Assembly: GCA_016125275.1 (NCBI GenBank)
Contig: WGMB01000003.1
Coordinates: 1,405,896 to 1,469,895 of the forward strand
Direction of reading: 5' to 3'
Length of the DNA stretch: 64,000 nt
Source: Acidobacteriota bacterium
GTDB taxonomy: Bacteria; Acidobacteriota; Terriglobia; Bryobacterales; UBA6623
The notes under the pieces are model-generated. The model was not told the origin of the DNA. It saw nothing but the letters and a program-made list of their open reading frames with translations, and ran no database searches. Position numbers and translations under genes: made by a program. How positions within the stretch are numbered: the stretch's first letter is position 1; each line of letters opens with the position of its first letter. Below, piece after piece: positions 9,604 through 14,277 of the stretch.

Positions 9604-10425
9604 CTAGCGCGCCGGCTCGAGAGCCTCGAACTTCCTCCGCTCGGCGCCTTGGCCATGACACACCACGCACGACTCCGCTCCGACGGCGTCGATATTCGAA
9701 GCGATCACGTAGCTGAGGCCCTTGTCGACCCAGCCGATCAGCTTCAGCCCATCCACCGAGTAGAAGTGGAAGTCGAGCTCGCCGGAGCGATAGACTTCCC
9801 CGCCGACCGGTTCACGGCCTTCGGCCGAGGCGACCAGCAGCGAGACCGGCTGATCCCGCATGGTGTACGACAAGAACGCCACGTCCTCATCGCGATGGCG
9901 CAACAGCCTCGCGCCGACGAGCTTATAGGCGTTGGCGCCCGGGGAGGGGCTGGGGTAGGCGGGCACTTCCAGGTGAAACGGCAGGTTCTGCTCGAGCCAG
10001 GCCGAGAGCGCGGCCGGGTCGCCGGATTGCGCGTCCAGGCTCAGGCGTCCCCGCGCGTAGCGCAGGTGGGACTCGGCGGCGTAGACCCGGAACGACTCGC
10101 CCTGGCCGCCGAACCAGCCCGTCAGCCATGCCGCCATGCCAGCGCCGATGACCAGCAAAAGGGCCGCCGCCCAGGCCAGATGCTGATGGCGCTCGGCCCG
10201 CTCGGCTCCTTCCAGCAGGCCGCGCACTCGATCGATCGAGGTCGCCGAGGGCGGGTAGGACTGCTGTGCGCCGCGCACGGCGTCCACCACCTCCTGCCAG
10301 CGGCGGTGCTCCTCGCGGCAGTCGGCGCAGTCGAGAAGGTGCGACTCGAGGTCGTTGACCTCGTCGCCCTGCAGCTCGGCGTCCAAATAGCAGTGCAGGG
10401 CCTCGCGGACTTCGGCGCAGGTCAT
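9604..10425 (-). CDS. anti-sigma factor with zinc-finger domain and C-terminal CxxCH motif
   Basis: The membrane anti-sigma partner of the ECF factor encoded just upstream, 273 residues. The cytoplasmic N-terminus has a ZAS/zf-HC2 zinc finger (H29, C33, C36 in SHLLDCADC), then one transmembrane helix (about 82-103) and a periplasmic domain of about 165 residues. The unusual point is the extreme C-terminus: C253VVC256H257 is a canonical heme c attachment motif in a protein predicted to reach the periplasm, where cytochrome c maturation occurs. The start is ATG 10425, which overlaps the sigma stop as TGATG, so the pair is translationally coupled. Next to a divergent operon of c-type cytochromes, a heme or redox sensing role is plausible but is inference; the CxxC could instead act as a thiol switch. 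Confidence 0.85.
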   Translation of the reverse strand: MTCAEVREALHCYLDAELQGDEVNDLESHLLDCADCREEHRRWQEVVDAVRGAQQSYPPSATSIDRVRGLLEGAERAERHQHLAWAAALLLVIGAGMAAWLTGWFGGQGESFRVYAAESHLRYARGRLSLDAQSGDPAALSAWLEQNLPFHLEVPAYPSPSPGANAYKLVGARLLRHRDEDVAFLSYTMRDQPVSLLVASAEGREPVGGEVYRSGELDFHFYSVDGLKLIGWVDKGLSYVIASNIDAVGAESCVVCHGQGAERRKFEALEPAR

Positions 10426-10988
10426 CACTGGTGCGCCTCCCGCCGAGACTCCGGGCCCACGACTTCCGCCAGCACGCCTCGCAACTGCGTGCGGGCGCGC
10501 GCCAGCCGGCTCATCACCGTGCCGACGGGACACTCGAGCAAGCGGGCGATCTGTTCGTAGGACAAGCCTTCCATATCTCGCAATACGATGATTTCGCGGT
10601 GCGCCTCGCTCAACGAGTCCAGCGCCGCACGGATCTCAAACTGCAACGCACGCCGCAACAGCAGGGTTTCGGGGGAAGATTGATCGTCCTGGGCCGCAAC
10701 GTCTTGGGCTGCTTCCAAACCGTCTTCGCGGCCACGGGCCCTCCGATCATTCTTCCAAATGTTGCGCAGGATGACGAACATCCAGCGCCGAACCTCGTCG
10801 CCGTCCGCCGGGGAGGGCCTTCGCCCGGCCGACAAGGCGCGGCGATAGCACTCCTGCACCAGCTCCTCGGCCTCGGCCGGGTCGCGGCTCAACGCCCTCG
10901 CATAGCGGAAAAGCGAGTCGTGACAGGCGAGCATGGCCCGATGCATCTCCCGCAGCGCCCTTCCCCTCTGCCAAGTCAACAACGGCAT
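10425..10988 (-). CDS. ECF-type RNA polymerase sigma factor
   Basis: A 187-residue extracytoplasmic-function sigma factor. Region 2 is seen as SLFRYARALSRDPAEAEELVQECYRRAL followed by RRWMFVILRNIWKN, and region 4 as LDSLSEAHREIIVLRDMEGLSYEQIARLLECPVGTVMSRLARAR, with the linker in between; both are typical. ATG 10988 is chosen because the protein then begins a few residues before region 2; an upstream open frame has no sigma content. It would control its own operon and probably targets nearby, the obvious candidate being the divergent peroxidase operon 96 bases away. (Motifs are given in parts of known ECF regions; no regulator-specific subgroup could be assigned by eye.). Confidence 0.9.
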   Translation of the reverse strand: MPLLTWQRGRALREMHRAMLACHDSLFRYARALSRDPAEAEELVQECYRRALSAGRRPSPADGDEVRRWMFVILRNIWKNDRRARGREDGLEAAQDVAAQDDQSSPETLLLRRALQFEIRAALDSLSEAHREIIVLRDMEGLSYEQIARLLECPVGTVMSRLARARTQLRGVLAEVVGPESRREAHQ

Positions 10989-11084
10989 CCCGAAAAAATT
11001 CCGTCCGACGGGGAATAATTTAGCGGCGCCTGTGTTGACTCCACAATGCCGCCCGCTCCGAGGGCGGCGGTCGGGAGGAGGCGC
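10989..11084. promoter_or_regulatory. divergent control region between ECF sigma gene and redox operon
   Basis: This 96-base spacer must hold promoters in both directions. On the plus strand GGAATA (11012-11017) is followed 16 bases later by GTTGAC (11034-11039), which could be an ECF-type -35/-10 pair; the assignment is weak. A GC-rich inverted repeat lies near 11050-11070, and GGAGGAG (11074-11080) is the ribosome-binding site of the peroxidase gene. Confidence 0.3.
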
Positions 11085-12398: not shown

Positions 12399-13535
12399 AT
12401 GGCAGCACGACACAAGAGCGTTGAGACCAAGTACTACGAGATGCGCGACAAGCTCATCACCAGCTTGCCGCGGCTCGATCGCCGGGACTTCTTCAAGGTC
12501 ATGGGCGCGACCGGCATGGCGGCGGCCATCAAGGGCCTGTTTCCGCCGCACTCGTTCCAGTTGCTCGAAGTGGCCAACGCGATGCCGTTGCCGGCCAAGG
12601 GCGACGCGGTGGAGAAGTTCACCTTCGCCTACATCTCGGACTCGCACCTGTACGAGGAGAAGCTCAACGACCAGTTCATCCGGGCGATCATGCGCGGCAT
12701 CGACGACGTCAACCGGCTCGACCCGCAACCGGACTTCGTGCTCTTCGGCGGCGACCTGGCGCAGCTCGGCCAAGCGGCGGAGCTCGAGATCGGCGCGCAG
12801 TTGCTCAAGGAAGTGAAGGCGCCGATCAAGATGATGGTCGGCGAGCACGACTGGTATCTGGACATGGGGGCCAAGTGGAAGGAGCTGTTCGGCGAGCCGA
12901 ACTACTCGTTCGACCACAAGGGCGTGCACTTCGTGGTGCTCAACTCCGTCGTCGAGAAGGATTTCTGGACGGCGCGGGGCCTGACGCCGATGGAGCGCAT
13001 GAAGACCGTGGCCGGGCTGGACAACTCGGCCCAGTCGGCGTTCGAGGTGGGCGAGGTCCAGCGCATGTGGATGCAACAGGACCTGGCGAAGGTGGACAAG
13101 TCCACGCCGGTGATCGTGTTCTCGCACTCGCCGCTGTACAAGTACTACCGGAACTGGAACTTCTGGACCGACGACGCCGACGAGGTGCAGGCTCTGCTGC
13201 GGCCCTTCGAGCACGTGACGGTGATCCACGGCCACACCCACCAGGTGCTTACCAACCGCATCGACAACATGCACTTTCACGGCGTGCTGTCGACGGCCTG
13301 GCCTTGGCCGTACGCGCCCGAAGGCCTGCCCAAGTACACCGTCCAGATGAGCCGGGCGAACCCGTTCGACCCGCAGGACGCCTGCGGCACGGGTCAGGTG
13401 ACGGTGAACACGGACGGGCTGTGCGACATGGTCTACAACCTGTGGGACCGCAACCCCATGCACGTCCGGGCGAGCTATCTCAAGTCGATGGGCAAGAAGG
13501 ACAAGCCGGAAGCGCCGACCTTCTCCTCCTACTAG
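12399..13535 (+). CDS. Tat-exported metallophosphoesterase
   Basis: A calcineurin-like phosphoesterase of 378 residues. After a long hydrophilic N-terminus comes a twin-arginine signal, R28R29DFFK with the hydrophobic stretch VMGATGMAAAI, so it is probably folded and loaded with metal in the cytoplasm before export. Metal ligands are D81xH83 (SDSHL), G117GD119, GEHD (148-151), FSH243 and GHTH (278-281). The third block reads GEHD where almost all relatives have GNHD, replacing the bridging asparagine by glutamate. It lies 42 bases after the peroxidase gene and 46 before the cytochrome gene, all on the same strand. Its substrate (phosphate ester, phospholipid or nucleotide) is unknown, and it has no heme motif itself. 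Confidence 0.88.
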   Translation: MAARHKSVETKYYEMRDKLITSLPRLDRRDFFKVMGATGMAAAIKGLFPPHSFQLLEVANAMPLPAKGDAVEKFTFAYISDSHLYEEKLNDQFIRAIMRGIDDVNRLDPQPDFVLFGGDLAQLGQAAELEIGAQLLKEVKAPIKMMVGEHDWYLDMGAKWKELFGEPNYSFDHKGVHFVVLNSVVEKDFWTARGLTPMERMKTVAGLDNSAQSAFEVGEVQRMWMQQDLAKVDKSTPVIVFSHSPLYKYYRNWNFWTDDADEVQALLRPFEHVTVIHGHTHQVLTNRIDNMHFHGVLSTAWPWPYAPEGLPKYTVQMSRANPFDPQDACGTGQVTVNTDGLCDMVYNLWDRNPMHVRASYLKSMGKKDKPEAPTFSSY

Positions 13536-13581
13536 CCCTCGCAGAAACGACAGTCGCAGGAACCCGCGGAGTACAGACGAG

Positions 13582-14277
13582 ATGAAACGACCGATCGCCC
13601 TGTTGAGCTTGGCCTGCTTGGCCGGAGGCTTCTTGCTGCTGCGGATGGAGGCCCAGGAAGCCTCGCACCACCACGCCCTGCCGCCGGGCTATACGCAAGG
13701 CAGCGGGGAGATCCTGCTGTGCGACGGCGCCACGCGCGTGATGATTCCGCCGAACCAAGTGTTCGACCGCGAGACGGCGCAGAAGTATTCCGACGAGCTG
13801 ATGGAGCTGTGGATGCAGAAGCACCCGGAGAAGGAGTGGATCATGGCCGCGGCCGCCCCGGCTCCCTCCCCCGCCCCGACGCCGCAGAAGCCCAAGGAGC
13901 CGGGCAAGGAGAAGGCGACGCAGTTCGAGATCTACAACGACTTCTCCGACCGCGACCAGCGCATCTGGCAGGAGGAGTACGACAAGTTCGTGGCCGAGGG
14001 CAACCGCATCTTCCACAACGCCGAGGCCTTTGGCGGCACGGTGGGCATCTCGTGCGACATGTGCCACCCCAACGGGGCCAACACGCACGCGGAGACCTAT
14101 CCGAAGTATCAGGTGCAGATTCAGCGGGTGGTGCTGCTGCGCGACATGATCAACTGGTGCCTGGAGCACCCGACCAAGGCCAAGCCGCTGGCCGACGACG
14201 ACCCGCGGCTGCGCGCCATGGAGGCCTACATCATGGCGCAACGGGCGGGTAAGACGATGGCGCCGAATAAGCACTGA
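13582..14277 (+). CDS. secreted mono-heme c-type cytochrome
   Basis: A 231-residue exported protein with a signal peptide (residues about 1-24), a His cluster (HHH near residue 30), a Pro/Ala-rich linker (about 89-105), and a C-terminal cytochrome c domain with C158DMC161H162. The order of motifs around the heme (GNRIFH...GISCDMCHPNGANTH...YPKYQVQIQRVVLLRDMINWC, described here in parts) is reminiscent of SoxA/TsdA-type cytochromes. No other sox gene is present, so sulfur oxidation is not supported. As the third gene of the operon it could pass electrons to the peroxidase. W192C193 supplies an extra cysteine that might be a heme ligand. Confidence 0.8.
   Translation: MKRPIALLSLACLAGGFLLLRMEAQEASHHHALPPGYTQGSGEILLCDGATRVMIPPNQVFDRETAQKYSDELMELWMQKHPEKEWIMAAAAPAPSPAPTPQKPKEPGKEKATQFEIYNDFSDRDQRIWQEEYDKFVAEGNRIFHNAEAFGGTVGISCDMCHPNGANTHAETYPKYQVQIQRVVLLRDMINWCLEHPTKAKPLADDDPRLRAMEAYIMAQRAGKTMAPNKH

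Follow-up and report, generated by a model that had tools for sequence, protein, structure and literature searches.

Extracytoplasmic function (ECF) sigma factor systems are common signalling devices, most of them with a periplasmic signal still to be found. A 64,000-nucleotide stretch of an Acidobacteriota genome (contig WGMB01000003.1, positions 1,405,896 to 1,469,895 of the forward strand, hereafter the window) raises this question in concrete form: what is read by an anti-sigma factor (P0001) whose periplasmic end carries a CxxCH heme-attachment motif, and which genes does its partner, the ECF sigma factor P0002, switch on? The initial annotation had proposed that P0001 may sense heme loading, redox state or peroxide and switch on the divergent peroxidase operon. 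Comparison strongly supports the regulatory link: the loci share a promoter motif, other peroxidases serve as targets elsewhere, and unlinked operons retain the motif. The oxidant input is a matter of fit with those targets. Overall, the system is a real, conserved, sharply regulated variant of the ECF/anti-sigma theme, in which sensing through heme c is likely and a peroxide signal is our best guess.

The anti-sigma gene and the residues on which the argument turns are placed as follows.
9604..10425, minus strand: anti-sigma factor P0001, class I, membrane-bound (273 amino acids; zf-HC2 domain, one transmembrane helix, periplasmic alpha/beta domain)
9655..9669, minus strand: codons of C253-V-V-C256-H257, c-heme attachment motif in the periplasmic C terminus
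9766..9768, minus strand: codon of His220, candidate distal heme ligand

Pfam matches, hydropathy and translation bear out the zinc finger, single membrane helix and CxxCH motif that had been noticed in P0001. The zf-HC2 domain (PF13490) spans residues 3-37 (25.7 bits against a cut-off of 22.2), its Hx3Cx2C zinc motif (H29-C33-C36) is kept in every alignment row, and hydropathy peaks once, at about residues 83-101. The CVVCH motif (253-257) lies C-terminal to this sole helix, i.e., on the exported side, and is followed by 16 final residues. Together with an ECF sigma partner gene, in the window as in relatives, and an RsiW/ChrR-like fold, these features place P0001 in class I. In its AlphaFold model the helical N-terminal domain is confident and matches RsiW (Z 7.4 over 56 residues) and ChrR (Z 4.0), and the periplasmic domain is of alpha/beta type. 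A Cache or P460-type fold was considered for the latter, and neither was among the structure matches, which leaves both possible. The spacing of CxxCH is the one that cytochrome c maturation requires, and in an exported domain the motif normally receives heme c. From motif and export, covalent attachment of heme c to P0001 is likely.

The motif is far from peculiar to the window. Homologues were sought in 200 genomes of the same order and 396 genomes of the phylum; widening the scan to 84,980 species genomes brought in another 27 named loci, part of them on contigs already found. In the order and phylum searches the high-scoring homologues stand apart by a score gap (about 150 against 97 bits). 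The resulting clade ranges over Acidobacteriota (Blastocatellia, Pyrinomonadaceae, Vicinamibacteria and others) and metagenome-assembled genomes (MAGs) named Deltaproteobacteria, Binatia and Tectomicrobia. Both cysteines and the histidine of CxxCH are present in 39/39 clade members, close homologues included, and in 0/22 sister anti-sigma factors; since the motif is invariant at identities of 26-73%, it is more than a chance occurrence. In a tree made without the tail, all CxxCH members fall on one side of one branch (Shimodaira-Hasegawa-like approximate likelihood ratio test, SH-aLRT, 89), so that the motif in this clade has a single origin. Sister sequences finish near the same position with a SDLN..EL..F-type stretch, and the tail was therefore exchanged, not merely mutated. 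His220 follows the same boundary, being present in 92% of the CxxCH anti-sigma factors and in no sister, and those exceptions that were inspected by eye align Tyr with it; it is a candidate distal ligand and possible partner of the CxxCH heme.

The clade count leaves out, as distant, L016 and L038 (CLLCH, without the zinc motif) and L091 (without the zinc motif). Two of these, L038 (8740-9642, genome G064) and L091 (5490-6371, G207), encode anti-sigma-like proteins that end in CxxCH beside other ECF sigma genes, and are possible independent or older cases of the tail. An isolated tail remnant without the N-terminal part (L037, 8032-8253, G170) is probably a decayed gene.

Which genes the pair controls can be read from the gap between the sigma gene and the divergent operon.
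10425..10946, minus strand: ECF sigma factor P0002, start revised from 10988 to the ATG at 10946
10977..11002, minus strand: ECF promoter of the sigma/anti-sigma genes, GGAATTTTTTCGGGATGCCGTTGTTG(AC)
11012..11037, plus strand: ECF promoter of the divergent operon, GGAATAATTTAGCGGCGCCTGTGTTG(AC)

P0002 has the two regions of an ECF sigma factor, sigma2 and sigma4, and these alone (Sigma70_r2, PF04542, and r4_2, PF08281, above cut-off). The start first given to it, 10988, falls within the promoter identified here, and so the ATG at 10946 is more likely the true one. A motif of the form GGAATAAA-N12-GTGTTAT stands before sigma and divergent genes alike, its boxes in the window reading GGAATAATTTAGCGGCGCCTGTGTTGAC and GGAATTTTTTCGGGATGCCGTTGTTGAC; no Rfam element overlaps the gap between the genes. 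The shared promoter motif that the initial annotation had suggested looking for across relatives was found, with similar boxes at constant spacing in the divergent gaps, in both directions at most loci. In the divergent direction it occurs at 24/26 loci (0.28 expected), and in the sigma direction at 29/38 CxxCH loci against 3/21 sisters.

Genome-wide, the motif is almost unique to these sites. The window's own 7.55-Mb genome holds three pattern matches, two of them in this gap, and two matches to a reversed control pattern; the third match (C10:218045) was set aside as chance, since it falls in a TonB-receptor-like reading frame. A stricter pattern gave 20 matches in 12 other genomes, 15 of them at the sigma locus (reversed control, 0), and over 15 genomes besides the window's own the reversed control patterns gave none. 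An extra site in G116 again falls within a coding frame. A blind match came from G262: its sigma pair has no peroxidase beside it, and its one remaining site (G262:C9:551) precedes by 58 bases an unlinked peroxidase-phosphoesterase-cytochrome operon. A homology search with the phosphoesterase recovered further unlinked operons in G520, G528 and G465. In the first two a clear motif marks the peroxidase start, in the last a weaker one. In three genomes without a CxxCH anti-sigma match (G006, G208 and G582) the operon is present and lacks the motif. The phosphoesterase clade and the CxxCH anti-sigma factor occur together in 11 genomes, alone in 3 and 8, and neither occurs in 374 (p 3e-14, uncorrected for relatedness). 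As far as sequence can tell, a small regulon is well supported.

The operon itself contains three genes.
11085..12356, plus strand: P0003, exported di-heme peroxidase of the cytochrome c peroxidase (CCP)/MauG family, two CxxCH
12399..13535, plus strand: P0004, metallophosphoesterase exported by twin-arginine translocation (Tat), Metallophos PF00149 at 62.6 bits, above cut-off, RRDFF Tat motif
13582..14277, plus strand: P0005, exported mono-heme cytochrome, SoxA/TsdA-like domain, one CxxCH

Pfam scores, CxxCH counts and the RRDFF motif agree with the three products first assigned. P0003 belongs clearly to the CCP_MauG family (190 bits against a cut-off of 25.6), scoring below the MauG and MbnH equivalog cut-offs, and P0005 matches the SoxA/TsdA cytochrome domain (PF21342) at 43.6 bits, above cut-off, and TIGR04484 SoxA at 41 bits against a cut-off of 110. 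Among the motifs of P0004 (ISDSH, GGDLAQ, GEHDW, SHSPL, GHTHQ), GEHDW takes the place of the canonical GNH[DE] metal motif; GEHD replaces the usual GNHD in all phosphoesterase copies read, from CxxCH-linked and CxxCH-less loci, with the Glu kept. The phosphoesterase had been called an unexpected member of the operon. Related ones are also divergent to many CxxCH-less sister pairs, and judging from these loci it belongs to an older pattern. Sister pairs without CxxCH (L097, L099, L101 and others) often face, in divergent orientation, exported phosphoesterases of another clade, behind which a small CxxCH protein sometimes lies; this would point to a wider sigma-phosphoesterase-cytochrome theme beyond the CxxCH clade. 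Downstream of the operon, 14409-15131 encodes a secreted 240-amino-acid protein without a Pfam or NCBIfam match.

Across the clade, with neighbours identified by BLAST against the window's proteins, the divergent gene varies. The peroxidase-phosphoesterase-cytochrome operon is found at 11/39 CxxCH loci (L114 has the peroxidase alone, frameshifted), a MauG-like di-heme protein of 465 amino acids at 8/39, a signal-bearing KatG at 3/39 (G029, G433, G488), a cupredoxin-phosphoesterase-cytochrome set at 5 Binatia-type loci, and none of these four at 12/39. The three KatG proteins have N-terminal signal sequences and are catalase-peroxidases HPI by score (TIGR00198, 1104-1127 bits against a cut-off of 770). 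Peroxidase-type neighbours occur at 22/39 CxxCH loci and 0/22 sisters (Fisher p 3e-6, uncorrected for relatedness). Adjacency of operon and sigma pair thus holds at 11 loci and fails in three or four genomes with unlinked operons and in the closest relative of the window (anti-sigma factor 73% identical), which carries KatG divergently; the motif retains the connection. On the tree the target type switches at least 14 times. As KatG is unrelated to MauG, the one sensor has more than once been coupled to different peroxide-handling enzymes. Beside the CxxCH sigma pair of L114, CcdA-like and cytochrome-c-maturation-like genes follow the frameshifted peroxidase copy (1563-4071).

We give somewhat better than even credence to an autoregulated ECF switch with a heme-c-bearing periplasmic sensor, which frees its sigma factor upon a periplasmic oxidant and drives exported peroxidases. 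At rest, the zf-HC2 domain would keep the sigma factor at the membrane. A periplasmic oxidant, most likely hydrogen peroxide (H2O2), would react at the heme on the C-terminal CxxCH, possibly partnered by His220, or alter its ligation or oxidation state, and the resulting change in shape of the periplasmic domain would free the sigma factor, directly or through regulated proteolysis. The free sigma factor would then read GGAAT-N16-TGTT promoters before its own gene and the operon, and peroxide-removing enzymes would be made outside the cytoplasm; the phosphoesterase may have a part in this response. An oxidant or peroxide as input would fit KatG and MauG-type targets, and heme loading, another redox signal or nitric oxide (NO) remain as alternative inputs.

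Several points weigh against this scheme. The predicted heme has the CxxCH motif and export of the domain as its whole basis, the tail is poorly modelled (predicted local distance difference test, pLDDT, about 50-58), and His220 covaries with a clade of single origin, so that its presence may reflect descent rather than function. Seventeen of the 39 CxxCH loci have no adjoining peroxidase. In Terriglobia-type genomes that bear the CxxCH anti-sigma factor, namely G354 (L176), G302 (L215, L216) and G567 (L211), motif-like sites have as nearby genes short-chain dehydrogenases, a ferritin-like Tat protein and a glycosyltransferase/condensation-type cluster, so that the regulon seems to have been rewired there. 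Binatia-type MAGs have such sites before the cupredoxin/phosphoesterase/cytochrome set; peroxide defence is therefore not universal in the clade.

Of the competing explanations, the strongest keeps the heme and changes the message: the anti-sigma factor would report on the maturation of heme or cytochromes, or on some other signal (redox, or a gas such as NO), and turn on heme enzymes once attachment of heme c is possible. Heme proteins do make up most targets, L114 has its maturation-like genes beside the operon, and periplasmic CxxCH sensors of the sCache_heme type show NO-sensor properties when fused to signalling modules (PMC12889525). However, the cofactor of KatG is heme b rather than heme c, the Binatia-type targets include a cupredoxin, and unrelated hydrogen-peroxide enzyme families have been recruited repeatedly, and we regard this account as unlikely, if worth keeping in sight. 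Less probable still is a heme-free thiol/disulfide or metal switch formed by the two cysteines. It has a parallel in ECF16 anti-sigma factors such as AbcS/OsrA, proposed to sense via periplasmic cysteines (PMC8315932), but in our clade the histidine is kept just as strictly as the cysteines (39/39), with precisely the CxxCH spacing. Finally, the sigma factor might control itself alone, with CxxCH a passive relic and the neighbourhood devoid of function, as the variation of adjoining genes among relatives, some loci sharing no neighbour, could suggest. Yet the motif precedes each alternative target and the unlinked operons and is missing where a genome has the operon but lacks the sigma pair, and this already disfavoured explanation is very improbable.

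The oxidant-responsive heme-c switch that we prefer has partial counterparts among known systems. Class I (ASDI/zf-HC2) anti-sigma factors such as RsiW and ChrR share with P0001 the Hx3Cx2C motif, the sigma-binding helical domain and a gene beside an ECF sigma gene, whereas P0001 has in addition a periplasmic domain with a C-terminal CxxCH. ChrR of Shewanella oneidensis is a soluble zinc/cupin anti-sigma factor, unlike the membrane-bound P0001. The C-terminal domain of RseB (RseB/MucB) weakly resembles the periplasmic part of P0001 (Z about 7, root-mean-square deviation 2.6-3.4, about 90 residues), a score below 8 that may reflect a common arrangement only; RseB itself is heme-free and a protein in its own right. 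P0003 differs from the rest of the bacterial cytochrome c peroxidase/MauG/MbnH family by its operon with a phosphoesterase and a SoxA-like cytochrome. In Shewanella oneidensis the RpoE2-ChrR pair responds to H2O2 and controls a periplasmic peroxidase, from a different promoter (TGATC / CGTA) (PMC4336711). The sCache_heme domain (DUF3365/Tll0287) is a precedent for a periplasmic sensory domain that acquired CxxCH, but its outputs are kinases, chemoreceptors and cyclic di-GMP enzymes, with anti-sigma factors unmentioned (PMC12889525), and PF11845 (DUF3365) is absent among the Pfam matches of P0001 at E up to 1. A coevolution study of class I anti-sigma factors does not mention heme or cytochrome in its text (PMC7406223). 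In the titles and abstracts of open-access papers that combine 'anti-sigma' and CxxCH, a set outside which the main ECF classification and subscription papers fall, no heme-c anti-sigma factor appeared, and novelty is accordingly provisional.

Whether these proteins form an ECF class of their own, in Acidobacteriota and some other phyla, whose heme-c anti-sigma factor, with the C-terminal helix of its sisters exchanged for a CxxCH tail, is an extracytoplasmic peroxide receptor for exported peroxidases, we hold to be an even question. With a sensor motif that can be interpreted chemically, a sharply defined promoter and a small, thematically narrow regulon, the path from input to output is directly testable. 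If the proposal is true, covalent heme would join the ways in which anti-sigma factors sense the periplasm, and a defined extracytoplasmic oxidant response would be added for the Acidobacteriota, soil bacteria that have been little studied. A heme-attachment motif acquired by the outer end of a membrane-bound switch in many Acidobacteriota, together with the recognition site of this switch before exported enzymes that destroy hydrogen peroxide, suggests heme-based sensing of oxidants beyond the cytoplasm.

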